Source: Dryococelus australis
Taxonomy: Eukaryota; Arthropoda; Insecta; Phasmatodea; Phasmatidae
Assembly (NCBI GenBank): GCA_029891345.1
Contig: CM057009.1
Coordinates: 307,746,666-307,810,665 of the forward strand
Length of the DNA stretch: 64,000 nucleotides
Direction: 5' to 3'
Shown here: positions 26,721 through 56,912 of the stretch, piece by piece
Numbering within the stretch: position 1 is the stretch's first letter
Layout: every line of letters starts with the position of its first letter
Notes under the pieces: generated by a model
Databases searched by the model: none
What the model saw: the letters and a program-made list of their open reading frames with translations, nothing else
What the model was told of the DNA's origin: nothing
Translations under genes and position numbers: made by a program

Positions 26721-28219
26721 TCAAAATTATGCATAGGAAATATTTATGAATACTGTAATTATACAAGAATGGTCAGTAGAATTAAAAAAAAAAATAAACA
26801 CACAAGTTACAAATTTGGAGACAGTTTTCCAATTAATGTTTTGATGTATGTATGGATGACAAACAGAAGATAAATGGATGGTTTGACTATGAACTGATTG
26901 TGTACAGATATTGAAATATTTATGAAATTGTTAATTAAAGGGGAGTGGATATAATTGGGGGCTCTAAACAGCGAGGGCTTGCGAGCAAATGAAGGTAAAA
27001 TGATGAATGAAGCAGTGCCAGAATGCATGGGTGGGGTAAATGGTCGATCCCCGTGTAAACCCATTGATCTGGCACGATCCTTAATTACGAAAATGCGGGA
27101 GCAACTACACTTTTGTAGGAGGCGAGTAGTACGACCACTACACCACCACAGTCACTGCTGATTAAAATATTTATAGGAATATTGCTTTAAATATTTAAAT
27201 ATTGATTACAAAATTAAAATAATGACTGAATATTTAATCGCAGGAGAATATTGGTAAAGGGAGATTTAGGATAAGATCACAGAGAACAGAGGCCAGGCAC
27301 CAACTGGCTTCCATGCTGTGACATTACCCGATCGACATATTGGATCCAGGTGAACTTGACTTTGGCCTCGCGCCCATAACCTTCACCCATACATGTGAAC
27401 ATGGGTGACTTTGAATACAAAATCCCCTTAATATTAGAAAAAAAAAATAAAAATTTAAGACATTAAAAAAATTTCGAAAATAAAAATATATTTTAAGACT
27501 CACATGCTGGAGGTCCGGGGTTTGATGATGTGTAGAGTGACTATGCTTCCAGCATAAAGAACAGCATACTACCTACCCTCACCTAATTTTATTGGTGGTT
27601 TAGTAAGCAAACCGCCATTAAAAACTGGTTATTTACTCGGCTCCCACCCAGCCCCCTTCCTCTCTGTAACACATTTACTGTCCATTGTTTTTCGACATCT
27701 GCCCACTTCAGAGTGCTGATAACATGTTTACATCATCACCCCCTAAGGTACAGGTAACTAGATTTTCAAGCATCGGTCAAAATATATAATTTAATGCTGA
27801 CAAGAGTGTACCGACCTGTACCGAATGGCGAAATGGTCCTTACCCACAAAGTATGAAAGTTAATACGACCAATTAGAAACCTAACCAATACCACTTTGAT
27901 TTTTAGAGTTGTCCATCACAATGTAGAAGTGTAGGGAAGTAGTTAATGTGAACATTTCCTCTCGCCACAGGTTATCATTTAATGCGAGATGTGACATACC
28001 ACAGTCACTTCCCTGATGTTTCCCGAATTAAGTCTGGTAAGTAAGTAATCTTTTATGTTCATCTCTTCAGTAAAATTCTGCAGGGTATTATTAAATGTGA
28101 TCGTAATTGAATTTCACATACATATCACACCAAAGAAAAAACTCAGCATAAAATTTCGAATACCAGTTCGGACCAGCAAACAATTGGAGTGTTGATATAA
28201 ATATGAATCATTTGTTTAA

Positions 28220-28328
28220 TGCTATGCCTATGAAAAACATTCAGACTTATTCTTTGGTGATGCCATTGTTGACTCCAGCTAGACTGCCTATGTTGCTGTC
28301 GATACTATTCGCAAACCATTAGGGTTAT
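28220..28328 (+). pseudogene. Left-arm copy of a conserved coding segment, decayed
   Basis: Reads AYEKHSDLFFGDAIVDSS, stop, then AYVAVDTIRKPLGL. It is the inverted partner of the open segment at 34624-34794, differing by substitutions and one in-frame stop. Function unknown. Confidence 0.45.
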
Positions 28329-28469
28329 AACATTGAGAATTGGAGTGTATATCATCATAGTTTGAATGATATCGAAATATCTCACTATGATAAAGCCCAT
28401 ATATAAACCTATTTGATCAATACTTTTCAATAATTGACAAAAGATTAACAGCCAAAGAAACTTACTGAA

Positions 28470-28985
28470 AACATAAACTGATAATACCAAACAACCATAT
28501 GAACCAGTCATCCTAGCGAGCTCTACAAACCAGTCATGCCAGGAAAACCAGGTGAAGCACCAATACAAGCCAGCCATATAAGCCATCAATACCTGCCAAA
28601 AATCTTAACAAATCATACCAGCTAACCTGACCATCAAACCATACAAACTGGCCACACCAAACGACCATTCTAACTGATAAGTCTATTGACCATCAAGATC
28701 AGCAAACCATATTCACCGATCATGCCGGCCAACTGACCAGTTATACAGATTAATTAGTATTAGAAGATTATAACAAAGTATCATAACAAATGGCCATACC
28801 TAAGAACCATAAATGCCAGCCAGACCAACCAACGAAACCAACTTACAAATGAAAATCCCCCCCAGGACTAAATCCAAGCCAAAACTGACTCCACCTAAGA
28901 CTAACTGCACCCAAGATTGAATCCACCATGTACTGAATCCACCAAAGATTGAATCCAACCAAGACTGAATAACAAATTTTTTCAG
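28470..28985 (-). repeat. ACCAACC-type skewed tract, left arm of element 1
   Basis: Degenerate words such as CCAGTCATxCCAGGAAAACC and AAACCATACAAACTGGCCA, the complement of the GGTTGG tract at 33.95-34.62 kb in the right arm. It ends with repeats of AAGACTGAATCCACC (28860-28970). Confidence 0.65.
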
Positions 28986-29199
28986 CTGCCGAGTTCACAT
29001 TCTGCCAAACTGATACGTACAATAATCAAGAACATCCATTTGTACCAACAGTTGATAATGACCAATCTAAAAAATGCCACATAATAGGGATCTTATTGTT
29101 ACATTCTTTTCAAAAATTTCGCAAATTGTTTCAACCAGAGCTCACCATACAAAAAAGGCGATACAAATTGAGCAGGTCCACTGACCAGTTGTCAAGCAT

Positions 29200-31785
29200 A
29201 TCTAAAAAAATAAGTTAAATAAAAAGGACTTAGAAAGACTAAAAGAATATCTCAAAAAGGAGATTCAAAATAATTTCTCGAAAAAAAAAAAACCACCCAA
29301 AAAAACATTTAAAAATCTAAAAAATAATCTTCAAAACTGAGACCTGAAGAAGAAACCTCAAAAATAAAACCTCGAAACATAAAAGAGAATACTTAATCAC
29401 AAAACCTCAAAAATGAAACCGCAATTCTCAAAAAGAAACCTCAAAAAAGAAACATGAATAAATAAAGCTGAAAATAGAAACTTAAAGAATGAAACCTGAA
29501 AAAAAAAACACTTGAATAAATAACACTTGAAATTTAAACACAAGAAACAAACCATCAAAAAAAGAAACATCAAGTGAGTAAACTGCAATGAAACATCAAC
29601 ATTGAAAAAAATTTAACCTCTAATAATAACCCTAAAAAAACCTCAAAATAACACCTTACGAAACAAAAAGAGTAACCACAAATTAAACTTTCAAAAGGAA
29701 AATTGGAAAATTGAAACCTCAAAACAAAGCCTCAAAATCACAACCTCAAAAAGTAATCTCAAAAACTAAACCTCAAAGAGAAACACAAAAAAACCTGAAA
29801 AAAAATTCAGTGTGAAACATTAAAAAAGAAACACCAAAACAAAAACCTAAAAAATCCCCAAAGACCAAACCTAAAAAAAAACCCTCAAAAATGCTCAAAA
29901 AAAGAATCTTCAAACTTAGAGACCGAAATTCTCAAAAACAAAACCTTATTTTTTAAAAATAAATTCTAAATAACGAAACCCCTATAAGAAACATCAAAAC
30001 AAAACCTACAAAATAACCCTCAAATATGAAATCCTCGAGATTTATCCTCAAAAAACGAAACTTTAGTAATAATCTAAAAACCTAATAAATAAAATTTTAC
30101 AAAGCCACCGCTGAAAAGAAACAAAAAATGCAATCCCGAAAATAAGCCTAAAACCAAATCTCAAAATGAAACCTCGGAAAAGAAACCTCAAAAAAATAAA
30201 CACCCAAAAATATCTTCAAAATTACTCTTCAAAAATAAACCCCCCAAAAAAATGCTTAACATCAAGATAGAAACCACAAAAATAAAAACTCAGGAGGTAG
30301 TGTATAAAAAAACATTAAAATGAAACATCAGAAAATGAACCTAAAAAAGTGACCTCAAAAATAAACCTCAAACAAAGAAACCTCACATAATTAAAATGCA
30401 AAAAACAAAACTGCAAATCTCAAAAAGAACTCAACAATAAAAACTCAAAAAATAATGCTCAACAAAATAGCTTAAAAATGAAACCTGAAAAAGAAACAAG
30501 AAAACAATACTCTAATTTAAACATCAAAGACCAAAACATCCAAAATGAAATCTCAATAAAGAAACCTGTAAGGAAACAAAAAAAAATTTAACATCAAATA
30601 AGAAACCGAAACAGAAACCTGAAAATGAAACTGTAGAAAATAAAACTAAATAAAAGGTACTTTAAAAATAAATGTGAAAAGAAACATCATAATGAAGCGA
30701 AGAAAGGAAACCACAAAATTAAACAGCAAATGGCATTTATAAAAAAACTTTAATAAACCATACCTCACAGAAAGAAAAAAAAACACACCTAAAAAGAAAC
30801 GTCAAAAAATGTACTTTCATAAAATATATTTCAAAAGAAACAACATAAAAGAATCCTCAAAAATTAATCAATAAAACCTTCAAAGAACCTATAAAAATTC
30901 TCAAAAATTAAACATCAAAATGGAACCACAAAAACAAATGTCAAAATAAACCTTCAAAAATGAACATCAAAAAAGGAATCCATAAATTAAATGTTCAAAA
31001 GGAAACTCGGGAAAACCGAAACTTAATAACGAAAACTTAAATCGAAACCTCAAAAAGTAACCTCAAATAATAAACCTCAAAGAGAGACCTCAAAAACAAA
31101 CCTCAGTGTACAAAAAAAAATAGAAAATCTCCAACTAGTAACCTCAGAAACAAAACCTACAAACAAAAAATGAAAAAAGAAAGCTCATATAAGAAACTTC
31201 AAAATAAGAGACCAAAATTCTCAAAAAACAAAACGTTAGAAATATTTCTAAAAACCTCAAAAACGAAACCTTAATGAGAAACTTCATAAGAATTCTCTAA
31301 ATTAATCCTCAAAAACGAAACTGCAATAATAACCTCAAAAAAAGATGCCTGACGAGATAAATTTAAAAATGCGACTACCAAATATAGCAACCAAAAATGT
31401 AACTTCAACAATAAACCTAAAAATCAAACCTCAAAATGAAACCTTGTTAAAGAGACCCAAAAAACCCCTCAAATTAACTTTTCAAAAAGGAAAATCTAAA
31501 AAACGAAACCTCAAAATCGAAACCACAAAAACGGAACCTCAAGGAATGAGCAACCACAAAAACAAACCCCAAAATGCAACCTCACAAAAGCAACCTTAAA
31601 AAAGTAACATCCATAAAGAAACTTCAAAATAAAACCTCCAAAAATATCTAAGAAATGAAACCTCTAAAAAGTACATAAAAAATAACCTCAAATAACAAAC
31701 CTCAAAAATACTCAGAAACAAAATGATTAAACTTCAAAAAAGAACACTCAAAAATTAACCCTTAATAAGAAATTTGTATGGAGGC
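29200..31785. repeat. AACCTCAAAA degenerate short repeat tract, left arm
   Basis: About 2.6 kb of irregular 11-16-bp units around AAACCTCAAAAA. The right arm has the complement (TTTTGAGGTTT) over only about 0.7 kb (33.2-33.93 kb), so the tract has expanded or contracted in one arm. The strand is almost free of G here. Lys/Asn/Thr-rich frames in it are chance readings. Confidence 0.9.
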
Positions 31786-32149
31786 ATATGTGTTGATGTA
31801 AATATAAATATAAAATAAGTTTAAATTTTTCTATTGATAATTATGTATAGTCATATCAGATATATTTATGTGTATATATACATATGTGAAGGTATTTGTA
31901 TGATTTTCAATTGTATTTTTCTCCTGATGCAAATCCATAAATGTGGGTTTTCGCACAGTGCTGCCATATTTTTTTACATAAAAAATGTATTTGCAGAGGG
32001 CCTTCTGTGTGCATGAGCTGGGCTTTTTACTGTAACAATAATCGCTTTTATATTGAAAAAAATTTTGTTTTCCTTCTGACACAGTGATGTGAACATTGAT
32101 TTGATAGTGATCACTCTCGTTATACTGAAGATTATATATGTATATGAAA

Positions 32150-32950
32150 GCTTACGAATTATGTAATGGAAATGGAGTCAAAACCAATGGCTTCATCGTG
32201 GAATCGTTGACAGTGCTGATATTATGACAAAGTTTGTGCTTTTGGCCATAGAGCCGGCCCACATGAAAAAAAAAAGTGAGTATGTTTGCATAGCTCATAT
32301 TGTATGGTATTGCATTGTGATACTTTTTCTAGGCTGTTCGCTCTAGGTAGTAGCTTGAATAGACATGCCAAGGTCTGTAAATATAGTTTTCTTCTCCTAC
32401 CAAGAAACAGAGTGTGTCGATATTGCTAAATCTTGTCAATTAACTGCATAATGCTTACAGAATGTGGGAGAACTATGGTCAATCACATGCCATACAGTCG
32501 ATTCGTATGAAATATGACCTTGCTAACCTGGCACGTGAACTGGTTTGCTTGAAAAAGAATAATGCCGTATCAGTATCTGCGAAGACAAATACCACCAACG
32601 AAGACCCAACACCCAAAACAAAGGAACTCAGTGCTGGAAAATAGAAAAATATCGAAGACGATAGTAAAAATAGTTTCGCTGATTAAGGTGATGGTGGTTT
32701 TCCTGATATTTTGACATATCTCCCCAAGAAGTCTGCTTCTACACGTGACCTGCAGAAGACAGAAGCCAAGAACGATCGCTATGCAATACCCCAAAAACCC
32801 GAATGAACTTGTATGCAGAATCAGACATTTGATTGGCCTGCTAGAAGTTGGAGATATTTCGAAAATTGATGAGATATGTTCAGTTATCAGCTGATTGAAG
32901 GAAAGGGGTTCTATCGGATGAAACCATTTGGTATTAATCTTAGTTAGCAA
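32150..32950 (+). pseudogene. Decayed C2H2-like zinc-finger gene of element 1
   Basis: Around 32313-32380 a frame reads DTFSRLFALGSSLNRHAKVC, a C2H2-like finger (hydrophobic core F, LxxH, terminal C) whose first cysteines lie in a neighbouring frame. VCRYC follows at about 32417. After stops and shifts, PNELVCRIRHLIGLLEVGDI and ICSVIS (about 32800-32890) match the C-terminal module of the element 2 copies (PNELVDKFRHLI; EISSVI). The next 200 bp (CATAGTAGTGCATGTTTAAT, CTTATTAATTCAACG) also match the sequence after the element 2 gene. At least three lesions make it non-functional. It sits at the centre of the inverted repeat in single copy. Confidence 0.65.
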
Positions 32951-33199
32951 ATATATAGGAAATGCAAAATTCGAGTGTATGAGATAAGTAAATACGTATA
33001 TTTATATATACATAGTAGTGCATGTTTAATTTCTTGAACATTACGCTAATACTTCCTTGGAACACTTATTAATTCAACGTTTTAAAATATATCGATTGCA
33101 AGGTTTGGTTTTAAGTTACATATCTGAAAGCAAGTGCACAAATAGGACAATGGTTCTATCCAAAACATTACACCAATCTAAAACCAGTTAATGTAGGCT

Positions 33200-33930
33200 G
33201 CTTTTTTTATGAGGTTTCAATTGAAGGTTTCAGTTTGAGATTTGTTGTTTGATGTATCGATTTGAGTTTTTTCTTTAGGTATGTTTTAGAGGTTTAATTT
33301 TTCGAGGTTTCATTTTGATGTTTTTATTTTGAGGTTTGATTTTGAGGTTTTTTTCTAAACATTTTTTAAGGTTTATTTTTGAAGTTTCCTTTGTGTGGTT
33401 TCGTTAATGGAATTTTCATTTTGATGTTTCTTTTGGCATATCGATTTGAGTCACTTTTCCGAGGTGTTATTTTCTTAGGTAATTTTTTAATGTTTTTTAT
33501 GAGGATTCTTTTTGAGTTTTCTATCTTGAAATTCCAGTTTGATGTTTTCATTAAGGTTTATATTTTTTTAGGTTTTTATTTGGAGTTGATTTTGAGGTTT
33601 CTTTTTTTATATTTCTATTTTTAAGGTTTTATTTTTTTATGTTTTTTTTTTTTAGGTTTCTATTTGGTGTTTCTTTTACGAAATTTTATTTTGTAGTTTC
33701 GATTTTTGCAGTTTCTTTATTAAGTTTTGTCTTTAATTGTTTTAGGCTTATTTTTCAGGTTATGAGATTTAGGATTAAGATTCTATTTTTGATGTTGTTG
33801 TTTCCTGGGTTGCTTTTTTAGGGTTTATTTTGGGGTTTACTTTTCGAGGATTCATTTTTGAAGTTTCTATTTTAAGTTTCATTTTGAGGTTTCGTTTTTA
33901 GGTTTCTCCTTTTGAGGTTATAACTTTTTT
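33200..33930. repeat. TTTTGAGGTTT tract, right arm of element 1
   Basis: Complement of the AACCTCAAAA tract at 29.2-31.8 kb. Phe-rich frames in it are chance readings of T-rich repeats. Confidence 0.85.
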
Positions 33931-33939
33931 TACATAGGT

Positions 33940-34620
33940 TTGACAACTGGTAATTTGGCTTGGTCAGTTTGCATGTACCTTTGGTATGGTCAGCTATGGT
34001 TGAAATGTTTCGAGAAGTTTTGTTGAGATGAGCAATGAGATTCGTATTATGCGACTATTTTGAGATTGGTCATCATTATCTGTTGGTACAGACGGAGTTC
34101 TTGACTATTTTTGTAATCAGTTTGGCAGGAGTTGGTCTCGGCAGCTGTCAGTCTGGGGTAGAGGCAGTCTGGAGTGGATTCAATCTTGGGTGGTTTCTGT
34201 CATAGTGGAGTCAGTATTAGGTTCAGTCAGTCTTTGATGGATTTTGTATTGGGTGGAGTTTCACTTATTGGCTGGACTGGTTGGTTGGCCTGGTTGGCCT
34301 TTATGGTCCTTTGGTATGGTCTGCTAGTAATGGTCCATCGGTATGGCAGGTCGATTAGTCGGCATGATCGGTGATTATGCTTTGCTTATCTTGATGATAG
34401 ATAGAATTCTTAGCTGGAATGGCCATTTGGTATGACTAGTTGGTTCTTGTGTAATTAGCTGGTATGTATTGTTCATAATTTTAGCTGGTATTGATAACTT
34501 ATATGATTGACTCATAGGGGGGCTTCGCCTGGTTTGCCTGGCATGGCATGTTCATAAGGATGGCTAGTATGACTAGTTAATTTGGTTGTTTGGTATGGAC
34601 ATTTCATGTGGTTGTCATGT
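33940..34620 (+). repeat. GGTTGGT-type skewed tract, right arm of element 1
   Basis: Degenerate TTGGTATGGTCxGCT and GGTTGGCCTGGTTGG words. The first 250 bp match 55.2-55.5 kb in element 2 (GTTTTGTTGAGATGAGCAAT here against the GAAAAGGTCAGCTATGCGAT region; GGAGTTGGTCTCGGCAG here). Confidence 0.65.
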
Positions 34621-34623
34621 AGT

Positions 34624-34794
34624 CTAGACCACAGACATATCGATATCATTTAGTATGTGAAGATGTTTTACATTCCAATTTTTAGAATCTAACCCTAATG
34701 GTTCGCGAATAGTATCGACAACATAGGCAATCCTGCTTGGGTCAATGAAGATTTCACCAAATACTAAGTCGGGATGTTGATCGTAGGCATATAA
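34624..34794 (-). CDS. Conserved short open segment, right arm of element 1 (unknown function)
   Basis: A minus-strand frame of 56 codons bounded by stops, without an initial ATG, reads LYAYDQHPDLVFGEIF, then IDPSRIAYVVDTIREPLGL, then LHILNDIDM. The composition is protein-like and non-repetitive. The inverted partner at 28220-28328 retains much of the same reading (VDTIRKPLGL), and the right end of element 2 has a looser match (DLVIG..., VDLMREML). I recognise no known domain. Either an exon of an element-encoded protein or a remnant; both copies have a TAA one or two codons before the YAY motif. Confidence 0.4.
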   Translation of the reverse strand, partial: LYAYDQHPDLVFGEIFIDPSRIAYVVDTIREPLGLDSKNWNVKHLHILNDIDMSVV

Positions 34795-35409
34795 TTACAC
34801 TAATGCTTTATATTTTATTCTACACTCCAATTGCTCGCTGTTCCGAACTGGTATTCGAAATTTTAGACAAAGTTATTACTTTGATGTGAAATTTATTTTT
34901 AACTAAATAATGAGCATGTTTAATAATACCCTGCATAATTTGTTTGAAGAAATAAACACGAAAATAATTTACTAGACTGAATGCTGGAAACATGAGCAAA
35001 GAGGATGTAATATGTCACATCTCGCATCAGACAAGAAACAGTGGGAAAAGGAAATTTTTTTCACATTAACTACTTTCCCCGCACAATTGCACTCTGGTGG
35101 ACAATGCAAAACACAAAAGAGGCAATGGTAAGCGATTAAGTGATGGTGTAAAATTGAATATTTTAGTTTTCATGTTTTATAGGAATGGACCTAATCATAA
35201 TTCGGTACAGGTTTGTAGCACTCTCAGAGACAGTAAATTTTCACTGTTGGCCGACCCTCGAAACACGAGTTACCAAGTGTGCTCATGTAGGTGCTGATGT
35301 AATTATTATTTATCATCATATTCTAGTTGGAAAATGTCAACAAACAATGGATAGTAAATGAGTTACAGAGAGGAGGAGTGCTGGAAGGAAGCCGACGAAA
35401 TAACAAAAA

Positions 35410-35422
35410 AAAAAAAAAAAAA
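35410..35422. repeat. poly-A run in right arm of element 1
   Basis: A homopolymer with no matching run at the corresponding place in the left arm (near 27640-27650), hence acquired after the arms formed, or lost from one. Confidence 0.5.
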
Positions 35423-35701
35423 AGTGGTTGGGTGTACACTTGCCGACTAAACTATCAATAAATACAGGTGTGAGATAGTTGTCTGCTGTTCTTAATGCCG
35501 GGAGCTTAGTCACTCCACCCAACATCGGTCTGCTGCGCGTAAGTACTTTAATAAATTTGTATTTATTAAATTTTCAATTTTTGAATTTTTTACAATATTT
35601 TTTTTCAAAATTGGGTTTATTTTAGTATTTTATGGTTTTTTGTGTTTAAGATTATCCTTGCTCATGGGAACAGGATTAAGGTCATGGAAGTGAAGCTAAG
35701 T

Positions 35702-35710
35702 TCAAGGTCA
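35702..35710 (+). promoter_or_regulatory. TCAAGGTCA half-site (element 1, right end)
   Basis: Exact extended nuclear-receptor half-site, as bound by FTZ-F1/NR5A and ERR-type monomers. Other exact copies are at 7193-7201 (-), 48353-48361 (-), 48638-48646 (-), 56302-56310 (+) and 56321-56329 (+), all in foldback arms. Binding is not shown. Confidence 0.4.
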
Positions 35711-35880
35711 CCCAGACACAATATGGCAATCGGTTGACATCACAACTGGTGGCCATTCTGTGTCTGTGCGCCATGTCCTTGTTCCAGATCCGTCATAAAC
35801 ATTCTACTCGAAAGAATGAAAGATTCATTGAAATTTCAAATATTGATTAAAAGGCTGAAATATCGGTGGAATAGTGGATT

Positions 35881-42199: not shown

Positions 42200-44420
42200 T
42201 TACCTGTCCCTTCGACGGCTGTTCGCTATTGCTTTTTCAGAGCACTGTGGAATGAAGTCATCAAGGTTGGACAGTGTTATCTCGGACTGTAAATCAAACA
42301 GTCAGCACCATCTATTCCTGAGAGATAAAATAAGTGATGCATCACCAGCCGAGTCCAAAGTTGTGGCTTTCAATGGGCGCATCACATCATTCTAGACAAC
42401 ATAGCACGACAAAAAGGGCTCACTGAAGTAGATATGCACGATTACCTTCAACACCTGCTGGATATATCGCTTCTGCAGTAAGATAAAAATGACTACGATT
42501 CAGACAGTAGTAAATGTGTTAATTATTTGATTCCTAATGGCACAGGTGAGGGTGATTCTAGTAACGATTCTGTAGACTTCCAAAAGGAAGAAACTTTTCA
42601 TATACTGTCACTTTCAATTGATTCTAGGCCCAGTGTGTTCGCCATCTCATTTATAAAAAAAAAAAAAATGTGCACTCGAAGAACTGAGCAGGGCCAAGAA
42701 ACACACACTATGCAGCAATCCATTGTATCCGATTCGCAAAGCAAGTATTCTTACATTTTCATTTGTACTTCGATATCATATTTTAGTTTTCTTTACATAT
42801 ATATATTCTTCCTGTCATTACCTATTTTTTTCATGGGAAACAAGCGTTAACTTCTTAGTATTAGGACCTTCAACTGAATTTGTCTGCAGTGGTTCTTCAG
42901 GTGATTCACCTGCACCTTCCATTCTGAGGGTATCTCGTCAAAGAAGAAGAGGTCGTGCAGGGTGGCGTGGACCTCAAGCATCAATGCAGCTGCATACACA
43001 TCAACACGTCCAAAATGCAGTATCATCACTGGCTGGTGGCGAGAAGGCTGCAGATGGTAATGTGTGGAGTCACATCACACCAGGCAAAAACTCAGGTAGG
43101 CGAAGTGATCACAATGTTTTTCGAGAAGTGTCTGGACTTACACGACATGCGAAGTGCAATATCGAGAATAGCTCACCAGCAGTTGCATTGCGCTTTTTCA
43201 TAAACGAATCAATGATTCGTCAAATAAAAAATTGCACAGGACAATAGGCTCGTTTTGTGCTGAAATATGATAACTAGACACTTCAATTTGAATAACTTGA
43301 AGTATTCATAGCAACAGTTTATGCTAGAGGAGCATATGGTGCCAACACCATTCTTGTACTTCAACTGTGGTCTCGCAAATGGGGTCAGTTTTGTTTTACT
43401 AATACAATGTCCAGGAACAGATTACAGAAATAATGACATTCCTACGCTTCGACGAGAAAGCCACATGCTCTTGTCGCAAGCAGAATGGCAAATTTTGTCT
43501 TGTATCCGAGATTTGGAAAAGTTTGAGAACAATTACATTATCTGTTACAAACCATATATCAATAGATGAACAAATCTTTCCTTCGAAGTGTCGTTGTACG
43601 TTTACACAATATATGCCAAACAAACCGGACAAGTTTGGAGTGAAATATTTGCTGGTTGTAGATGATGAAAATCAAAACATTTTGAATGGCTTTCCATATA
43701 TTGGGAAAGATGCAACCAGACCTGCTGACAGACATTTAGGTGCACACGTAGTGCTCCAACAGATGGAGCCATTCCGTGACAAGGGAAGAAATGTGACTAT
43801 GGACAGTTATTTTACCTCTGCAAGTCTAAATAACGAACTTAAAAAGAAATGCTTGTTGGGACACTGAATAGGGCCAGACGGGAAGTACCATTCCCTGTGA
43901 AACATACTGATGACTCTTTACATTCAACTATCCTTCTCAAAAAATTGACATGGTCCTGACATTTTACCAAGGAAAGGTGACAAAAAAAAGTGCTTGTTCC
44001 GAATACTCTTCACTCTGCGGTAGATATTGATTAGCAGGCAGAGAAGAAGATACTCGAATAGATTCAGTTCTATAATAACACAAAGTACGGAGTTGATATT
44101 GTTGACCAAATTCCATGTAAATAAGCTACAAGAGCCATGAGCCACAGGTGGCCAGTTCATGTGTTTTTCCACATCCTTGACTTAGCATGTATCAATGCTC
44201 ACACACTCTCTAAGGATGTAACAAAAGAAAATATTTCAGGAAGATATTTTATACTTTCTTTGGCGAAAAAGTTAGCCTAACCATATGTAGCTAGACGTTC
44301 ACATGTTCCAAAGCCTTTCCCAAGTATCTGGGGGAATATTCCACAGATGCTTGTCAAAACTAACGCGCACATTGCCAAATCTCCATGTGTAACTAATATA
44401 AAACTAGTGACAAATATTCA
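42200..44420 (+). pseudogene. piggyBac transposase pseudogene
   Basis: N-terminal part at 42842-43247 (ADGNVWSHITPGKNSGR, FFINESMIRQIKNCT). Next, in shifted frames, are a segment resembling VFIATVYARGAYGANTI and MSRNRLQ (43290-43430). The core at 43433-43867 has SIDEQIFPSKCRCTFTQYMP, KPDKFGVKYLLVVDD and VTMDSYFTSASLNNEL. Then KYGVDIVDQ (about 44083-44109) and RWPVHVFFHILDLACINAHT (about 44148-44207). All three catalytic aspartates of piggyBac DDE (IDEQ, MDSYF, GVDIVDQ) are still readable, though in different frames. A C-terminal Cys-rich finger is not evident. An intron or spacer at about 42740-42862 (GTATTC ... TTCTTAG) may split the N-terminal part. No TTAA-flanked terminal repeats were located. 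Confidence 0.85.
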
Positions 44421-47165: not shown

Positions 47166-47507
47166 GTAAAAATAAAGTCGATCAAAAACTGGTCGTACTT
47201 AAAAAAATATAAAAAAAATAGGAAAATGCGATTTTAGGGTAAAATCCTGATGTGCTTTAAAGGCTAAAACAGGTCTTTGTCGATACCATTACCATCCTAG
47301 GCCGTCAAACGCGACTCTAGTCTGTGATGTCAACCAATGCAGCACAAGAATCATCCAGAATCCGATAGCCGATGCCTGCAAATAATTCGGCCAAAGCCTA
47401 CTGCTTACCACTGAAGACGGAGTCGGGATTCTAGTCGCAGGGACACTATTTAACGAAAACTGTACCTTGATCTCTTCACTCCAATAGCATGCTGGTACCT
47501 ACAAGTA

Positions 47508-47927
47508 AAGGCCGTTGACGATAAAGTGAGCACTTTTGAATTCAACCTTAGAAAAAAACACTTCCCTTGCCTGCATTTACTTCAACGGGCGCACTGAGTG
47601 ACATTCGCCTGGTATAATTGGTAACTATAGATGGAATGTAGTTCCATATCTTAATATCGAATAAAAAGTGTTAGGTAAACATTTGCGATATTTAAAATTA
47701 TTTATTTCGCTATCTCTTTTTTTTCAATGCATCAGTTTGTAAAATTATAAGATTTATAACATCTTTACTTTCCTAATAATTTCACAGTTTCACTTGACCG
47801 ACGCAAGAATAAAGTGATGAGGCCAATGGCAATGTTAATTTTACATAAGGCGGAAGAATACCCAACATGCATACAAGTATATTTTAAGCAGGGCTTTCTA
47901 AAGTGCTCATTTTAACGTGAGCACCCT
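47508..47927 (-). mobile_element. MITE copy 2 (inverted relative to copy 1)
   Basis: Starts AAGGCCGTTGACGATAAAGT after a TA (47506-47507) and ends near CGTGAGCACCCTA. Internal matches to 2151-2563 read on the other strand include CTTATGTAAAATTAACATTG, GGCGCA near the end and CCTAACACTTTTTATTCGA. Terminal bases have drifted more than in copy 1. Confidence 0.8.
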
Positions 47928-48699
47928 ATTATTGAAATCTGAGTAGATCTTTTTTTTTTTTGTTTGAAAAGATATGTTTATTATGTCAACATCGAATAAA
48001 GCCGCGCGAAAAGAGATGGAAGTGTCAAACATAAAAAAAATTAACTTAGCATTCTAGTAGCAGGGAAATGGGAAGTCTGGCGCAAGCGAATGGGGTAGTA
48101 GGAGCCATGAGCTGACCGCCGCCATATTTCATTTCCCTTTTCTTCTCTGTCAAAATTAACATTTTCCCCTCGAAATTGATTATTTTTTGCTTAAAATGTC
48201 CCTTTTCCCTTCAATATTTCCCTTTCTCAGTTAAAATATCCCGCTTGTCCCTCAAAAAGCAATAATTTAAAAAAAATCCCATTATTTACACAAACGAACC
48301 ATTTTAAGAATTAAGGGGGTCTTTTTTTGCTTTTGATCGTGAACTTTGGCACTGACCTTGATCTTTTGCCCATGCTATTGTATGATGTTTTAAAAAGTCC
48401 ATAAAACCCACAGTTAAAAAAATACCTAAAATATTTATTTAAAAAATAAAAATAATTAAAAATATCAATTAAAAGTGTAAATGTAGTAGATCTAGGGTTC
48501 ATTGGAAGGTGGATAGACAAAGCTCCCTACATGACAAATACTTGTCAGGTTGGTCGGTGTCCAGCTCATTAGCCATGTTAACTGCCGAGGACCTTCACCT
48601 TGACCCATAAAATTGACTCCATTCCCATGACGTTGAATGACCTTGACACAAAACATTCCCAAAAAATCCCAAAACATTTTCAAACAATTCCATCAACTT

Positions 48700-48930
48700 C
48701 CCCAAAACCCTTAACCCTTGACTCAAGACTCAAGACCCAAAACTCGAGAATTAAGACTTAAGACCCTGACTCAGGAATCAAGATTAAAGATTCATGACTC
48801 TGGACACAAGACCCTTGAATCAAGACCCTTGACTCAAGATCCTTGAATCACGGCCGTTGAATGAAGACGTTTGACACAAGATTAAATACTCAAGACTCAA
48901 TACCCTTGACCCAGTACCCTTGAATAATAA
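48700..48930. repeat. GACTCAAGACCCTTGA short repeats (left arm)
   Basis: Irregular 14-16-bp units around ACTCAAGACCCTTGAATCAA. A shorter, diverged complement occurs in the right arm at about 56122-56210 (TCAAGGGTCTTAGGTC, CTTGAATCTTAAATC). Confidence 0.65.
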
Positions 48931-49248
48931 ACTTAAATCCAAAAAATCCTAAAAATTCTAAAGAATTTATAAAAAATAACAAAACTGAAAACTTTAATAT
49001 TAAAATTATTATTAAAACTGTATATAAAAACTTATATCTCCGGAGGTTTCCTGAGCTCCACATCCACTGTTTCTGATTGTTTGATTAGTGGTTTCTCCCA
49101 ATCCCTCCACCAATGTTTCTCATTGGTTGATTACTTGAGATCGCTGCACTCCAAAACTTTTTTTATTTGTTGATTACTCACCTCATTCCACCCACCACTA
49201 ATGTTTCCCATTGGTTAATTAGTTGAAAGGCCTCCACCTCCCTCACCT

Positions 49249-49509
49249 TTGCTCATTCCGTCGTATGCAGACATCTTGTTTTTATCAATTGTTATTTGTT
49301 TTAATTTTCAACACCTAAGAGATGATAGTTTATTAACTATCGTTTTAGTCGCCAGAGGTGCAGTCGATTTAGCCACAATGTTGGTTGTTGAGCTTGACCT
49401 TATACCAATGACATTAAACACGGAAAATCGAGAAAATTCACAGTCCATACAATTATCAATTATTGGCTTGTCACATCAAGGGACAATACCGATTAACAAA
49501 CCTAATTAA
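49249..49509 (+). CDS. Short open frame in left arm, partly conserved in right arm
   Basis: 86 codons containing TIVLVARGAVDLATMLVVEL and PMTLN. The reverse complement of the right arm near 55640-55760 reads LIIDLVTRSAVD, stop, ATVLL. The similarity runs over both arms, but the right copy has a stop and a shift, so conservation of the protein is not shown. No known domain. Confidence 0.25.
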   Translation: MLIPSYADILFLSIVICFNFQHLRDDSLLTIVLVARGAVDLATMLVVELDLIPMTLNTENRENSQSIQLSIIGLSHQGTIPINKPN

Positions 49510-49870
49510 CGAATGACAGCACACACAAGACCGTCACCAACCAAGATTAATTCCACCCAAGACCAACTCCACCGAAGACTGATTCCTGATGAGGTAGACT
49601 TACCCACGAATAACTCCTACCGAGACAAGTTCTTGCAAAACTGGCTAGACCAAACGACAAGACCAACTTGCCATACCACCCATGTATGCAAACTAACGAT
49701 GAAGGAAAATTTCGAAAAGAAAACTCCTAATAAATGTCGCATTGATAACCCCTTCGCAGAAAATCTTCGCAGAACTTTCGAATTACATTTCTATCAGAGT
49801 CGACCATACCAAAGGGCCATACCAACTTACCAAGAAAACTTGCCAGACCAACTGACCAGGCCAACCAACT
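49500..49870 (-). repeat. ACCAACC-type tract, left arm of element 2
   Basis: CAAGACCAACTCCACCGAAG, CCAGACCAACTGACCAGGCC and similar words, the complement of the right-arm tract at 55.20-55.62 kb. The 119-codon frame through it is Thr/Pro/Asn-rich and follows the repeat. Confidence 0.65.
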
Positions 49871-50164
49871 AGTTGCGAAACATTCCTAAAAAATATTCCC
49901 GTCATTTCATTCGTTCGTCATATAGATATCAGTCTATTTTTAACGTCCCGAGTAAGACGTAATACTTCAAACCGAACTATAGTCCTCATACTGTATGCGC
50001 ACACATAAATTTGATCTAACATAGACTCTCAATTGATTGTTTAGACCACTGAATAAATAAGACTTTCAGAGAAGCAGAAGGGACTGTATAAGAAATTAAA
50101 CGCACATTACTATATACATAAGTTGTAATTATTTAATATATATATTCTAAATTTCTGATTATTT

Positions 50165-52900
50165 TGAACATAATGTTTTTACATTTCTCAGATATCTGCA
50201 GATTATGGATAGTCGCCAACTGTCCCATCTGATGTAACCCCAATTCTTCATTTCATCGATGATTCAAGAAATCTCAAGAATGTGTGAGAGATCCCCATGT
50301 TATTGCAGGTAAATCAAATATCTAAGTCTATCAACAAGTTCATTCGGTTCTTCAGGAAATATGTAACGAGCGTTATTGACGCCTTCCGCCTTCTTCAAAC
50401 CACTTGCAGAAGGAAACTCGTTAGTTAAATGTGTGAGAACATCGAGAGAATCATCATATTACGAATCAGATACTTTATCAACACTGTCTCCATAGTCATT
50501 ATCATCAATGCTGTCTTCATGATCCTCTTCACCTCCTGTTTAATCCTCAATATAAAGTATACCTTTATTGTAGGGGTCACACGGACATCATCAGTATTTA
50601 AATCAGACATCTGTTTATTCTGAAGTTCGTCGATTTCACGCTAACATCTCGCAATTGTACATTCCACACATCCTGACTCCACCAAACACTGAAGGTCTCT
50701 CATTCCGTTATAAGCATTAACTGTACGTAATAATCGTCTGTGGAATCAGTACCCATCGATGCAGCAGGGAGTATGGATGACATCACTTTCTGGGTCTCAA
50801 AAGACGAATACTTGTAGTTATTGATGTGGTTCTTCAGTATATCGCCTTGCATAAACTTCATGAACCCAATATCGCAGTGTTTTACCGCACTGTGACACTC
50901 CTCACAAATATACATAGAAATGCGGTATCAGATAAATGCATATACTGTTCTAAATAACATTACAGATGTTCGGGTACATTCTCAATGCACAGATATTAAA
51001 AACAATACTCATATTGCCAGTGATTTTTCATTAAAGTTACACAAAAGAGACGTGCGGCGAGCAGCAAATGTAGACTAGCTACTTTAAGTTTTAATACCAA
51101 TTCTCTAGCCTCAGAAAATAGTAAGAATTCATTATACAGATTATATAATACTCATATTTATACTGCCTTACCATAGGCTTCGAGCAACAGTTACTTGGAA
51201 CATTTGCTGGAAATAATTACAATTCCTAACTATAACTCACTATGAATTTTTGTTGATCTCAATACACCTTCCCATACAAGTGGCACACTACAAGCGTAAC
51301 AGCTGTGAAACAACCTGGGCCTCGATTAACACCTTTGAATGCCCTTGAAATCTACCAAATTTATACATTAAGCCATAGCAATACTACACACTGAGCCCGC
51401 TCACACATTAATGCAGATAGCACGACATATGTTAAAGGATTCAACATTATTTAAATATATTATTGCGTATTCATCACAACTACTAAAATATTTTCTGATA
51501 AAAATATAAATTTAAAAATGATATAAATGTGACTACACATTATAGAGTCCGACCCTTAATATCACTGGTCGCTCAGGCCTTTGAAATTGTATTAAATATT
51601 TATTTCAAGATATACACACATCAGGATTACCTAACACCTATGATTGTAGGTGTAATTTAGTGGCAGCGGTGATGTAGCTAACGAAACCGCGAAAGAGCAC
51701 ACCAAACCAGTAATTTCCTTATCAAAAGGCATATAACTACCAATAAAAACGTGCACAGGCTCCGTAAGAGCCCTAGAATAATAAAACAGCAATCAGCTCT
51801 AGACTTTCACAAACGAACCGAGCTATACTATGGCACCGATACCCCAACACGACGCCAAATATGCTAAGTCTCGACCTATATCTAAAAGGCCTAAATGCAA
51901 AGTATATTGCTCTTAAGCACTCAACATGCTTGCTCCTGAGCGGAAATATTTACGAAAGTGGGTAGTGGAAGAGACGAAAAAGTAACATGAACCTGGGCAG
52001 TTAACTGGGACTGAGGCTGACATGCAATAAAAATTTTCCTGAAACTTATTACAACAAAATTACAGCCAATGTACGGTTAATTGTCGTGCTGCAAAATATA
52101 GTAACATGAAACCAGCAGCCTGTCCGAAAAAAACTACATACTTATCCATGTACGACCCAAAGAGAAGTTTAGCAAATTAAATTCAAGACTTTCCTATCAA
52201 ACGACTCTGCCATGACTCACCTTAATTGGAGCGGAAATTTAACCACCGTAAGTTAACTCCAGGTTAGAGAATCCCGACTCGTAGTTCATGTAACAGTCCA
52301 GAAAACGCGCCACCTACAGCTCGCAATATTATACAAAAGGACTCCCATCACTGCGGAGAGTTTCACCGAAGTCGCTGCTGCCACTGATGTAGACAGAATT
52401 AATGCTGAAAGGAAGAATAGGCTGAGGGCAGGTCGTGTAATACCTTAAATAAACTCAAGGATGTTGACGCACCAGGCTAGGGGAGGAAGGTAGGGGCCTG
52501 GCAAGGAATAGGAGAGGGGACACCGGCCTCCACCAAGGTTAATAGCCAGAGCAAAATCAATCGTAGCGGTCGTCATCGGGAACACAGTTGACGGTGGTAC
52601 TACCACCATCATAGCGCGATAAGGATTCTTCGTACAGGCGGATCTCTCATGTCGCCGAGCATGTCAGCTTTTGTTGAAGATCTTTCCACTGTAGCAACAC
52701 TTTAAACCTGCAATTTTCCAGCAATGGGAGAAAGTACATCCATAGAAGTAAGCTCTACTGTATACTTCGTACAATTATTATCTTACATTTTCTTCATGAA
52801 AAACCAATGTCCTTTCCGCAGTGGCAACGTGTTTATCTACTTGGACTAGCTATTGCTTTATGTAGTGATATAATTACTAACACATTTAATATGTGAAATT
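50165..52900 (-). pseudogene. Decayed zinc-finger gene, left arm of element 2
   Basis: Minus strand, read away from the axis. First part (52.9-52.62 kb): TTGCCACTGCGGAAAGG resembles CHYCGK. After 1.7 kb of unmatched DNA the gene resumes at 50.92 kb with YICEECHSAVKHC and GDILKNHINNYK, the second C2H2 finger with both zinc-binding cysteines intact. ASMGTDSTDD and, in shifted frames, an acidic linker follow. Then comes NEFPSASGLKKAEGVNNARY and PNELVDRLRYLIYLQ (about 50310-50380), a stop, and the end of the module. The inverted partner at 53.95-54.85 kb is collinear. Several stops and shifts make it a pseudogene. Confidence 0.7.
50925..52620. other. 1.7-kb segment unique to the left arm
   Basis: Lies between GCCTGTACGAAGAATCC (minus strand, 52.63 kb) and the TATATTTGTGAGGAGTG finger (50.92 kb); the right arm joins these parts within about 30 bp. 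It has a GC-rich end (52480-52620, with GGTGGTACTACCACC) and an AT-rich remainder without open frames. No GT...AG pair in the sense orientation fits cleanly at both edges. I lean to an inserted element, but no terminal repeats or target duplication were found. Confidence 0.5.
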
Positions 52901-53089
52901 GAAGTATTTTTGTACTTCCATTCAACAAGACAGTTTATCCATTTCCTTAATCACATTAGCATGCAGTGATATATTCATCGCTTTCTTTCAGAAAAGTTCT
53001 TTGCTAAGCTTGAAAACATGGTTATACCTAAAGCAGACAACTGAAGCCTATCAGACCGACCCTTAACAAGCCTGACCCCACAAACCACA

Positions 53090-53340
53090 TGCACCACAAT
53101 CAGCAGCACAATAAACACCACGTGCATCACAATCACCACTATTGGCACCACAGTCAGTACCACATGCACCACAATCAGCACCACATGCACCACAGTCACC
53201 ACCACACACATCACAATCAGTAAAACACACCACAATCAACACAATATGCACCTCAATCAGCACAATATGCACCACAATCAGCAGTACATGAACCACAATC
53301 AGCATCGCGCTTAGCACTGAACTTAGCTCCACAGACACAA
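53090..53340. repeat. CACCACAATCAGCACCACAT repeats, left of axis
   Basis: About 12 irregular 15-18-bp units. The complement (GTGCTGATTGTGGTGCAT) lies at 53.55-53.73 kb. Val/Ile-rich or Cys/Gly/Asp-rich frames in both are translations of the repeat. Confidence 0.85.
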
Positions 53341-53545
53341 CAAATGTCACTTAATGACCCATAAATGACCCATAATGTCCCATAAGTAACCTACAATTAA
53401 ACATAAATAACACATAAATGACCCTAAATGAAACATCATAACCCATAAGTTCATATAAATAACCCATTGCTCATCATGAGTCATTATGGGTTATTCAGGG
53501 TCATTTATGATTCATTTATGGGACATTAAGGGTTATTTGTAATGT
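53340..53545. repeat. Axis of element 2: ATGACCCATAA repeats meeting their complement
   Basis: ATGACCCATAAATGACCC-type 13-bp units on the left switch at about 53480 (CTCATCATGAGTCATTATGG) to GGGTCATTTATG-type units on the right, so the two arms are nearly contiguous at the centre. Confidence 0.75.
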
Positions 53546-53549
53546 GTGG

Positions 53550-53735
53550 TGATAATTGCAGTGCTAAGTGCAGTGCTGATAATGGTACTGACTGTGGAGC
53601 TGATTGTGGTGCATATGTTGTTGACTGTGGTACATGTGGTGCTATTATTGTGCATGTAGTGCTGATTGTGTGTGTGTTGCTGATTATGGTGTGTGTGGTG
53701 CTGATTGTGGTGCATGTGTTGTGTGGGGGCAGTCT
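53550..53735. repeat. GTGCTGATTGTGGTGCATGT repeats, right of axis
   Basis: Inverted partner of 53090-53340, slightly shorter. The plus-strand 95-codon frame (53542-53829) and minus-strand frames across it are repeat translations, although LSALSVTMISSLGKN after the repeat has a left-arm counterpart LSALGITMFSSLAKN. Confidence 0.8.
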
Positions 53736-53954
53736 CGTTAAAAGTAGGTCTGACAGGTGTAAGTTGTCTGCTTTAAGTGTGACCATGATTTCAAGCTTAG
53801 GGAAGAACTTGTGGGGAAGAAACTTCTAATGATATTAATGCATGGTAATGTGTTAAACGAAATAGATAAGATGGCAGATTAAAGAGTCATAAAAATGCTT
53901 AAATCTCCGTGATTAAATGTATATATATATATACACAAAGCCATAGCTAGGCCA

Positions 53955-54850
53955 AGTAGATGCACATGTTACCACTGTGGAAAAACTGAAGTTTTTCTTT
54001 CATGAAGATGATCCAAGCCAATGATTATATGAAGTCTACTGTAGAGCTTATCTCTATGGATATACCTTCTCCCACTGCAGGAAATTTACATGTAAAACAG
54101 TTTTGCTACTGTGGTAAGATCATCAGCAAAAGCTGCCATGGTCGGCAACACGAGAGAACTGCCTGTACGAAGAGTCTATTTTGCACACTGTATCGTTGCG
54201 ACAATGAGCCCATACAGTTTATGGAAGATGATATATTGAAGAACCACATCAATAACTGCAAGGATTCGTCTTGTAAGAGCCAGAAAGTGATATCGTCAGT
54301 ACCATCTGATGCATCGATGGGTACTGATTCCACAGACGACTATGGAGGTACAGATAAAGCTAATGATGGAATGAGAGACCTACGGGGTTTGGAAGATTCA
54401 GCATGTGTTTAATATACACTCGCAAAATGTTCGCATGATATCGACGAACTTCAGCATAAACAGTTGTCGGCTCTAAATATTGATGAGTACACGAACACTA
54501 CAAAATAAAGTAAACTTTATATTGAGGATGAAACAGGAGGTGAATACGTACATGCAGGTAGCACTGATAATAATGACTATGAAGATAGTGTTGACGAAGT
54601 ATCTGATGAGAAGGATGATGATTTTCTCGATGTTCGCATACATTTAAAAAACGAGTTTCCTTCGACATGGGGTGTGAACAAGGCAGAAGTTATCAATAAT
54701 GTTCGTTGCATATTTCCCGAAGACCCTAATGAACTTGTTGATAAATTTAGACATTTGATTTACTTGCAGTTACAAGGGGATCTCTCAATATGGTTGAGAT
54801 ATCTTCAGTCATCTATGAACTGAAGAATCGGGGTTACATGAGATGAGACT
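53955..54850 (+). pseudogene. Decayed zinc-finger gene, right arm of element 2
   Basis: Starts with CHVTTVEKL-like DNA that in a shifted phase gives CYHCGK, paired with the left arm. The frame 54002-54412 (136 codons) reads STVELISMDIPSPTAG, FCYCGKIISKSCHGRQHERT (finger 1), then a second, damaged finger (CTLYRCDNEP ... DDILKNHINNCK) and ASMGTDSTDD. After a stop: HDIDELQHKQLSALNIDEYT, an acidic stretch with DNNDYEDSVDEVSDEKDDD, NEFPSTWGVNKAEVINNVRC and PEDPNELVDKFRHLIYLQLQ (about 54720-54770), then a shift into VEISSVIYELKNRGYMR. Two in-frame stops and one shift lie in the reading. The predicted parent is a two-finger, acidic-linker nuclear protein; function unknown. Confidence 0.75.
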
Positions 54851-54899
54851 GTTGGCTACTTTCCATGATCTGCGATCATCTAATTAATGAAAAGATAGA

Positions 54900-55180
54900 A
54901 TGTTCATAATAATTTGAAAGATTTAATGCATATAGGAAGTAAATAAATAAAATTTATGTACATAGTAATGTCTGTTTAATTTATCATACAGTCCCTTCAG
55001 CTTCTCTGAAAAACTTATTAATTCAGTGGTGTAAACAATCAAATGTATGTGAGTGCATGCAGTAGGATAGCTATAGCTTGATTTGAAGTATTCTGCCTTA
55101 CTCGGGTCGTTTAAAATCGACTGAGTTCTATATGGCGAACAAATGAAACAAAGAGGAAATTTTTTAGTAATGTTTTGCAA
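54900..55180. other. 3' flank conserved with element 1
   Basis: ACATAGTAATGTCTGTTTAA and CTTATTAATTCAGTGG correspond to ACATAGTAGTGCATGTTTAA and CTTATTAATTCAACG at 33.0-33.08 kb, and inverted to 50.02-50.10 kb. So the unit mobilised includes at least 250 bp past the module end. Confidence 0.65.
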
Positions 55181-55194
55181 CTAGTTGGTTAACC

Positions 55195-55620
55195 TGGTCA
55201 GTTGAGCATCTTAGTATGACCCCTTGGTATGGGTGGCCCTGGCAGAAATGTTTTGCGAAGATTATATGAAAGTTTTCTGCGAAAAGGTCAGCTATGCGAT
55301 TCTTATTTGGAGACTTTCTTCGACATTTACCATTATTGTTTTATTGTTTAGGTGGGTGGTATTGCAAGTTGGACTTGTCGGTTTGTCCAGACAGTTTTGC
55401 AGGTACCGGTCTCGTCATGGAGTTAGTCATGGGCTAGTCTCGTTAGGAACTAGGCTTGGGTGTATTTAGTCTAGGATGGATTCGTTCTTGGTTGGGATAG
55501 GTCTTGACTGGAGTCGGTTGGGTGGAGTTAGTCTTGGGTGGAGTCGTTCTTGTGTGCAGTCTGTCGTTATTTAGTATTGTTAGTTGGTATCTCCCTTAAT
55601 GTTACCAGATAGTAATTTAC
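55195..55620 (+). repeat. GGTTGGT/GGAGTCGTTC tract, right arm of element 2
   Basis: TAGTTGGTTAACCTGGTCAG opens the tract; GGTGGAGTTAGTCTTGGGTG-type units follow. It mirrors 49.50-49.87 kb and is similar to 34.1-34.3 kb in element 1. Confidence 0.65.
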
Positions 55621-56301
55621 GAGTGCATTGTCAGCAATTCTTCTCGATTAATTGGAGTTTAATGTCATTGGGTTAAGGTCAAGGTCGTCAACAACACAGT
55701 GGCTTAATCGACAGCACTTCTGGTGACTAAATCGATAATTAATACACTAGTATCGCCTTACTTTTTAAAATTGAAACTAATGACAAACAAAAAACAAGAT
55801 GGCTGCATATGTCGGAATAATCGCAAGTGGGGGAGATGGAGGACAGTCGACTAATTAATAAATGAGAAACATTGGTGGTGGGTCGAAAGACAGTGAGTAA
55901 ACAACCTATAAACAATTCTTTTGGGGGTGAAGCAAGCACAAGTAATAAACCAATGAGAAACATTGGAGGAAGGATTGGAGGGAAATCAACTAATTAACCA
56001 ATGAGAAACATTGCCAAGGACCAGTTGTCTGCTGGATGTGATCTGAGGAAACCTCCGGATATGTATGTCTTATATAAAAATTTATTAATAATAGTTTTTC
56101 AATTATTTTTTATAAATTGAATCAAGGGTCTTAGGTCAAAGGTCTTGAATCTTAAATCTTAATTCTCAAGGCTTGCATTTTCAGTCTTTATTCTTCAGTC
56201 TTGAGTGTAGTGTGAAGAGTTTTTCGGGAATTTGTTGGCATTTTTAACAAAATTGTTTGGGATATTTGGATTTTTTTTGAAATTTTTGTGTCCAAGTTCA
56301 T

Positions 56302-56329
56302 TCAAGGTCATGGATCAACATCAAGGTCA
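56302..56329 (+). promoter_or_regulatory. Two TCAAGGTCA half-sites, 19-bp step
   Basis: Exact copies at 56302-56310 and 56321-56329 near the right end of element 2; near-matches TCAAGGTCG at about 56607 and 55680. See the entry at 35702 for the others. Confidence 0.4.
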
Positions 56330-56912
56330 TCGACATCTAACATGGTTGACGAGGTGTACTTTCGCTGACCTGGCAAGGTTTCGGTCATGTCGGGAGCTTA
56401 GTCGATCCACTTGTTATCGAACCCCGGACCTGTTTCATGTAGATCTTAAAGTAATGTTTTAAAATAATTTAAAAATAAAAAAAATTAGAAATAATTATAA
56501 TTTTTTGGTGGATTTTTTTAAGTAAAATTTTGGGCTTTTGTTTGGAATTTTTTGAGTTCAAAATCATCCAAGGTTACAGGCACAGTGTAGAGTTCAATGT
56601 CAATGGTCAAGGTCGAAGGTAAAAATGATCCCCCCAAATCCTTTAAATTAATAGTTTTTGCAAATGAAGGGATATTTTTTCAAAATGAGGGATCGGTGCT
56701 TTATGAGGGATAAATGGGAAATTTTAAGGGAAAAAAGTGAGATTTTGAGGAGAAAAAGGGAAAATTTAAGTGAAAAATGGTTAATGAGGAGGTAAAAAGG
56801 AATATTTTGAGAGAAAAAAAATTAAAAATGGAGATTCGAGATGGCGGTGGTCGGCTTCTGGCTCCTTCTTTCCCATTCCATTGCGCCAGACTTCCCATTT
56901 CGCTGCTACTGA

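Follow-up and report, generated by a model that had tools for sequence, protein, structure and literature searches.

A palindromic foldback element with a gene in each arm in Dryococelus australis, a probable derivative of a Polinton/Maverick transposon

Introduction

The FB elements of Drosophila combine a foldback shape with tandem repeats in their arms, and both features recur in the element analyzed here, which occupies positions 48056-56910 of a 64,000-nucleotide stretch of the Dryococelus australis genome (the whole of this stretch is referred to below as the window). Copy-back or snap-back forms are also found among the defective genomes of adenoviruses. For invertron plasmids, snap-back and panhandle steps have been discussed (PMC1864894). 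Among Polintons, also named Mavericks, the commonest ends described in vertebrates are 5'-(AGT)2 ... (ACT)2-3', and intact vertebrate elements are reported to be 12.7-24.6 kb in size, with terminal inverted repeats (TIRs) of 46-1447 bp and 6-bp target duplications (PMC8097293).

The element of the window shares its ends with Polintons, the members of its family generate 6-bp duplications, its relatives carry polymerase and capsid genes, and its gene has a counterpart located beside a Polinton TIR. On these grounds, the preferred reading of the foldback is one Polinton end plus the next gene, present twice. From these sequence comparisons it is very probably a non-autonomous, palindromic derivative of a Polinton/Maverick element. 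An initial annotation of the window had recognized the foldback; its interpretation as a whole is partly supported, since the nature of the ends, the target duplications of the relatives and the link of the gene to Polintons/Mavericks went unseen.

Structure of the foldback element

The limits of the element and the presence of a broken, outward-reading gene in each arm were established by self-comparison and from the list of open reading frames (ORFs). The self-dotplot proposed in the initial annotation revealed an anti-diagonal running inward from both ends, over 48056-56910. Its outermost match pairs 48053-48261 with 56914-56697 (75% identity) and is followed by 49068-49571 with 56010-55509 (77%), 49526-50857 with 55506-54216 (77%, 715 bits) and 52627-53220 with 54173-53600 (76%). 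The inverted pairing covers 6892 of the 8855 bases of the element, none of them within a repeat nested in the left arm; when this insert is disregarded, 6892 of 7135 bases (97%) are paired. The arms are approximately 3.4-3.7 kb long and share 77.8% identity across the 1764 positions that could be aligned, and by this pairing and identity the element possesses long TIRs.

The two inverted arms with the same gene placed head-out in both, as the initial annotation had described them, are thus confirmed. Its placement of the axis near 53480 was also correct: at this point a (AATGACCCATAA)n tract meets its own reverse complement. From the outside inward, each arm comprises (i) the terminus, (ii) short tandem tracts, (iii) the outward-reading gene, (iv) CAATCAGCACCACATG repeats and (v) the (AATGACCCATAA)n tract (Table 1).

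The left arm is the longer one because an unrelated 1.72-kb repeat is nested in it. This repeat (50889-52608) has no inverted partner within the element, and in other copies of the arm the match passes from about 50860-50890 straight to about 52609, the repeat being absent. Its relatives occur elsewhere without the element: there were 52 first-look candidates, and among the 40 scored, which include the window's own copy, four near full-length copies at other sites show 78-82% identity.

Table 1. Features of the foldback element in the window
Feature	Position	Strand	Basis or remarks
Left terminus (AGTAGCAGGGAAATGGGAAGTCTGGCGCAAG...), Polinton-type end	48056..48147	+	terminal profile match
Left arm, outer part: extended TIR and 3' part of the gene	48056..50888	+	inverted alignment with right arm
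Short tandem tracts in left outer arm	e.g. 48649-48868, 49522-49586		tandem-repeat scan
Left gene copy	50250..52860	-	broken, split by nested repeat, outward; limits approximate
Nested 1.72-kb dispersed repeat inside left gene copy	50889..52608	.	borders approximate; foreign to the element
Left arm, inner part	52609..53480	+	5' part of the gene (read on - strand), CAATCAGCACCACATG repeats 53084-53304, axis tract
Axis tract (AATGACCCATAA)n / reverse complement	53348..53538	.	tandem-repeat and self-comparison
Right arm	53480..56910	-	inverted alignment
CAATCAGCAC-type repeats upstream of right gene	53573..53721	-	
Right gene copy	53990..54823	+	two frames, 53990-54412 and 54509-54823; outward
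16-bp tandem tract (GTCTTGGGTGGAGT..), right arm	55451..55565	-	counterpart is 49522-49586
Right terminus, reverse complement of left	56822..56910	-	terminal profile match

Terminal sequences and target site duplications

The two termini of the element are identical at 29 of their first 30 bases. Its ends, AGTAGC and GCTACT, agree at five of six bases with the (AGT)2...(ACT)2 ends of Polintons. We searched the 3.4-Gb genome (in which the window lies within contig C17) for the terminus motif AGTAGTAGGGAAATGGGAAGTC, allowing at most two mismatches, and obtained 449 sites (225 forward and 224 reverse), compared with two (one in each orientation) for the reversed control. A 31-base version of the terminus yielded 22 sites, against none for its control.

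Ten inverted pairs of termini less than 20 kb apart were collected, seven from the 100 places listed of the 449 and three, including the window, by means of the 31-base pattern. Five of the ten have identical 6-bp flanks (ATAAGC, GGCACC, AACAAA, CATACA and AACCCC); in three others the flanks match at five of six positions, in one at four, and in the window at three. Random hexamer pairs taken from these sequences reach at least five matches in 0.7% of cases. Outside this set, a match of 6/6 was found for the element at locus L027 and of 5/6 for an insert at L005. The terminus family is one of mobile elements that make 6-bp target duplications; the window copy itself shows none.

These data bear on whether the element could instead be a foldback of the Drosophila type (FB/NOF or Galileo) that captured a gene and owed its mobility to a transposase of the MULE or P type. 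In favor of this explanation, the inverted arms are long and internally repetitive and many copies consist of two TIRs, as in Galileo, where copies with extended TIRs also occur (PMC3573991). However, duplications of 6 bp accompany eight of the ten pairs, compared with 7 bp in Galileo (PMC3573991), the (AGT)2-like ends are common to polymerase- and capsid-bearing elements, and none of the frames submitted to Pfam matched a P or MULE transposase. We regard such an origin as extremely improbable. The initial annotation had seen no transposase in the element, and the same Pfam search found none. It had also judged the element to be unlike known foldbacks, which holds with respect to Galileo, given the target duplications of the relatives: Galileo is characterized by 7-bp duplications and a P-type transposase, the relatives of the present element by 6-bp duplications, and Pfam gave no such transposase match in these frames.

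Polinton relatives in the D. australis genome

The most informative relative is a 15.05-kb element delimited by a pair of termini at C3:69455375/69470428 (loci L030/L031), which is flanked by the exact duplication CATACA and has TIRs of about 1.4 kb. Three frames in its left half are colinear with a locus of the PF03175 polymerase family (43%, 39% and 45% identity; E values of 6e-20, 6e-41 and 1e-20, respectively). The right half encodes a Bro-N domain (E 2e-19) and contains frames that we take to specify a packaging ATPase. This ATPase-like region is common to the capsid-bearing loci L005, L006 and L032 (tblastx; 3e-75 for L032).

The last frame before the right TIR of the 15.05-kb element (L031 5648-5962) is a homolog of the gene carried by the foldback, with the similarity located in the C-terminal part (tblastn, E 6e-10). 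This frame shares its strand with the ATPase-like frames and is oriented toward the TIR, which is also the orientation of the gene in each foldback arm. Over about 590 bp, the DNA of this gene region is 66% identical to the left arm of the window element (E 2e-60) and 63% identical to the right arm (E 8e-46). The foldback thus has sequence beyond the terminus in common with a Polinton that bears core genes.

Another relative, L032 (8.5 kb), has both ends, TIRs of 1.5 kb and capsid frames (tblastn 2e-70). The related insert at L005 gave matches to the double-jelly-roll capsid family PF21738 with E values of 7e-35, 1e-15 and 1e-6. PF21738 is abundant in this genome: there were 18148 first-look candidates, of which the best 126 were scored, all above the cut-off, compared with matches in 0 of 14 control genomes; for the polymerase, 54 matches came from 91 scored of 6287 candidates. 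The proximity of these genes to the arms was judged by eye, from the listed coordinates of these matches only. Within 48056-56910 no Polinton core gene was seen among the 24 frames listed, five of which were searched with Pfam, and the interior of the 15.05-kb element gave no tblastx match to the window at E 1e-6.

In two arm copies, at L005 (2514-9258) and at L006 (from 2368; both oriented as matched), a different, capsid-bearing element is inserted into the foldback gene itself. These inserts have AGTAGTAGGG-type ends; for the one at L006 only the near end was seen.

The gene carried in the arms

The left and right gene copies correspond in inverted orientation at 50285-50565/54507-54787, 50730-50876/54197-54343 and 52624-52701/54099-54176. 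The predicted product has a Cys/His-containing start, an acidic middle and a PNELVD-type end. Natural frames from several arms and the frame of the 15.05-kb element could be aligned (8 frames, mean column identity 39%). All Pfam matches of the window gene fell below the curated cut-offs, and across the eight members a single one matched Gemini_AL1_M (E 0.0037), which is unusable. No match to the gene was found in PHROGs, and the best among sequences of solved structures had an E value of 0.17. In the 15.05-kb element the gene comes after the ATPase-like frames, and in vertebrate Mavericks the genes pm and pz are described in this neighborhood (PMC8097293).

Among 25 grouped copies, the differences from the right arm of the window at the first, second and third codon positions were 0.177/0.219/0.223 for ORF1 and 0.201/0.208/0.220 for ORF2. 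These near-equal values show no clear purifying selection on the gene after insertion. Because the codon positions diverge almost equally, the copies give the impression of passengers in decay and not of functioning genes.

Other foldbacks and the history of the arms

Genome copies present exclusively as single arms would, according to the initial annotation, have pointed to a chance head-to-head insertion. The gene was found in both arms at five other loci (L007, L011, L019, L028 and L029). Three of these (L007, L011 and L019) were among the first 20 loci with similarity to the arms, in which another four (L002, L003, L012 and L013) have a shorter, gene-less second arm and 13 show a single arm within the 10 kb fetched. 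L028 and L029 were detected as divergent gene pairs among 40 scored gene matches and proved to be foldbacks. The second gene is partial in L029, where it starts at the equivalent of 54418, and in L007, which lacks 54070-54388. At L007, there are two right termini in tandem (6952 and 8403), and the 196-bp flanks that adjoin them resemble each other (89%), which looks like a duplication of the end plus its flank.

The complete elements span 0.53-15 kb and their inverted coverage ranges from 6% to 92% in the 10 measured, the 15-kb element excluded. The complete element at L024 measures 3.85 kb and has TIRs of 1.1 kb and a single copy of the gene; L027 (5.2 kb) is 92% palindromic and the gene was not found in it (blastn, E 1e-4).

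Gene-only and whole-arm trees, built with 24 arms, agree in placing the two arms of L011 as sisters and likewise those of L028 (100/99 each), with support across trees of between 99/98 and 100/100. The sister relationship is suggestive for L029 (83/90), and the trees gave no resolution for L007 and L019. The sister arms of L011 and L028 would therefore mean either that mirror images arose repeatedly, which is the simplest reading of the trees, or that arms were homogenized; conversion of one arm by the other within an element could have produced the same pattern and is the main alternative to repeated formation.

A palindrome formed once could also have spread as a non-autonomous family of its own, and the same kind of axis tract in the window, L007, L011 and L019 is in accordance with this. 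The sister arms of L011 and L028 argue against a single origin, although arm-to-arm conversion could mimic them. Moreover, the inner joins of L028 and L029 lie elsewhere: the left arm of L028 extends to the window equivalent of 52843 and its right arm starts at 53764, and the right arm of L029 starts at 54418. The palindrome of L027, in which the gene was not found, also speaks against a single formation. We consider a single origin to be unlikely.

Several observations weigh against a Polinton origin of the foldbacks or against insertion of the window copy as one unit. Among the six two-gene foldbacks, recognizable termini at both ends are confined to the window element and L007; the left one was recognized in L011, a weak left one in L029 (E 0.059), and none in L019 and L028. 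The full Polinton L030/L031 belongs to a different subfamily, with 63-66% DNA identity. Pfam gave no match of the corresponding kind for its polymerase fragments alone or for its ATPase-like frames, and neither an integrase nor a protease domain was detected in it (frames of at least 75 aa were listed and nine searched, without a dedicated search). Among candidates outside the set of ten pairs, target duplications are imperfect at L021 (4/6), L014 (1/6) and L032 (4/6), and at L007 the match was 2/6 as first cut, becoming 6/6 after the right end had been set by eye one base outward. The initial annotation had asked for the boundaries and target duplications of the element to be defined: the boundaries were set, but the flanks of the window copy (CATTCT and GAGACT) match at only 3/6 positions and therefore do not show that it inserted as a unit. 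Finally, the arms of the window element are not sisters in any tree, although their sisterhood is not rejected (p-AU 0.166 and 0.266).

Flanks that match at 3/6 would be in accordance with the window copy being a chimera, with halves from different foldbacks joined by ectopic recombination, e.g. at an inversion breakpoint. The identity of its arms (77.8%) is no higher than that between arms taken from separate elements (mean 78.2, sd 2.2, 270 pairs), and Galileo provides a precedent, with chimeric copies that have TIRs of two groups and unmatched flanks (PMC3573991). However, the same identities would be obtained from a star-like, old family, the sister relationship of the two arms is tolerated by the data (p-AU 0.266), and a 6-bp duplication can decay when, as the end branches indicate, each arm has changed at about 0.13-0.15 per site. 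A chimeric origin is conceivable, but in our opinion rather unlikely.

The non-sister arms and unmatched flanks would equally fit a chance head-to-head insertion of two single-arm elements, as would the excess of single-arm over two-arm copies (13/20 versus 3/20). In this case a terminus might be present at the axis, but none was detected there in a profile search to E 10, and the same head-out layout recurs at five other loci, two of them with sister arms. Chance insertion is very unlikely. Derivation from a Polinton, with one end duplicated in reverse, remains the preferred reading.

Other features of the window

A second, more decayed foldback occupies 27200-35808, with arms about 65% identical over 2.8 kb and AAACCTCAAAAA-type tracts. 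Its right end (AGTAGAATGTTTATGACGGATCTGG..) is similar to the end of L021 and gave a weak match (E 0.013) to the Polinton terminus found at the ends of the first foldback. Of 615 candidate copies, 40 were scored, and most match only about 27880-28400.

A frame with a Cys-rich end (8178-9062, - strand) follows ACCACAATCAGCGCCACATGAACCA repeats similar to those of the foldback arms (region 7377-9585), and 7377-7606 resembles a subterminal part of the capsid-bearing L005 insert; the region 7377-9585 is possibly another Polinton end. Segment 45111-46758 resembles the interior of the same insert in two stretches (67% and 74%); it is probably what is left of a Polinton, at a distance of about 1.3 kb from the foldback.

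Segments 2159-2566 and 47505-47920 form an inverted pair (79%), and a 45-kb element ending beside the foldback was considered. A repeat of this kind, about 420 bp long and recognized by eye in L004, recurs among L003, L004, L012, L013, L014, L015, L016 and L020; because of this recurrence in eight loci the pair was taken as a dispersed repeat, and the 45-kb element was rejected. The window also contains a piece of a piggyBac-like transposase (43403-43864; DDE_Tnp_1_7, E 2.7e-20) and a 134-bp unit in three tandem copies (21132-21537, 94% matches).

Discussion

We propose that one end of a Polinton, i.e. the TIR and the adjoining gene, was repeated in reverse at the other end of the element, with loss of the middle genes. 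Two routes might lead to this structure: (i) a template switch of the copy-back or panhandle kind while the linear element underwent protein-primed, strand-displacement replication, or (ii) recombination that extends the TIRs, as discussed for Galileo (PMC3573991). A Polinton-derived identity combined with an inward extension of the TIR over the adjoining gene, by either of these routes, is highly probable. Copy-back replication as the specific route is put forward only tentatively. It would create a palindrome in a single step, with both ends still functional. Because both ends survived, such a palindrome could be replicated and integrated by Polinton enzymes, which full Polintons would supply in trans; the palindromic element has since decayed.

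It is possible, if somewhat speculative, that the foldbacks are fossils of copy-back Polinton genomes of the defective-interfering type, in which the polymerase changed over to the strand it had displaced and copied one end back. The resulting palindromes would have retained both their replication and their integration ends, have been mobilized in trans and have arisen repeatedly. To our knowledge, the mode of Polinton replication has never been observed directly in animals. If this proposal is true, the foldbacks would be physical evidence for replication of animal Polintons in the form of free linear DNA and for their giving rise to self-parasites. The palindrome junctions would record Polinton replication, and self-parasitism could be tested by counting and dating such junctions in genomes. 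More generally, the data suggest that Polintons, like P-type and FB elements, can be a source of foldback architecture, here with a whole gene in each arm. In the literature covered, we found no report naming a non-autonomous, defective or palindromic Polinton/Maverick, and none on foldback Polintons as judged by titles and the opening lines of abstracts.

Among the known systems, Galileo resembles the D. australis element in having copies composed only of long, internally repetitive inverted repeats, in TIR extension and in the occurrence of chimeras with unmatched flanks (PMC3573991). It differs in belonging to the P-element superfamily, with 7-bp duplications and a P-type transposase, and the available part of its description mentions no gene inside the arms (PMC3573991). 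The copy-back and panhandle forms of protein-primed linear DNAs likewise have one end duplicated inversely and the middle lost; unlike them, the window element is known from old chromosomal copies only, with no replication intermediate. In comparison with Polintons/Mavericks, its arms of about 3.4-3.7 kb, which include a gene, exceed the TIRs of 46-1447 bp reported for vertebrate elements (PMC8097293), and no core gene was found in it. It nevertheless has in common with them the (AGT)2 ends and the long TIRs; its related members in this genome have 6-bp duplications and carry the polymerase, ATPase-like and double-jelly-roll capsid genes of this group.

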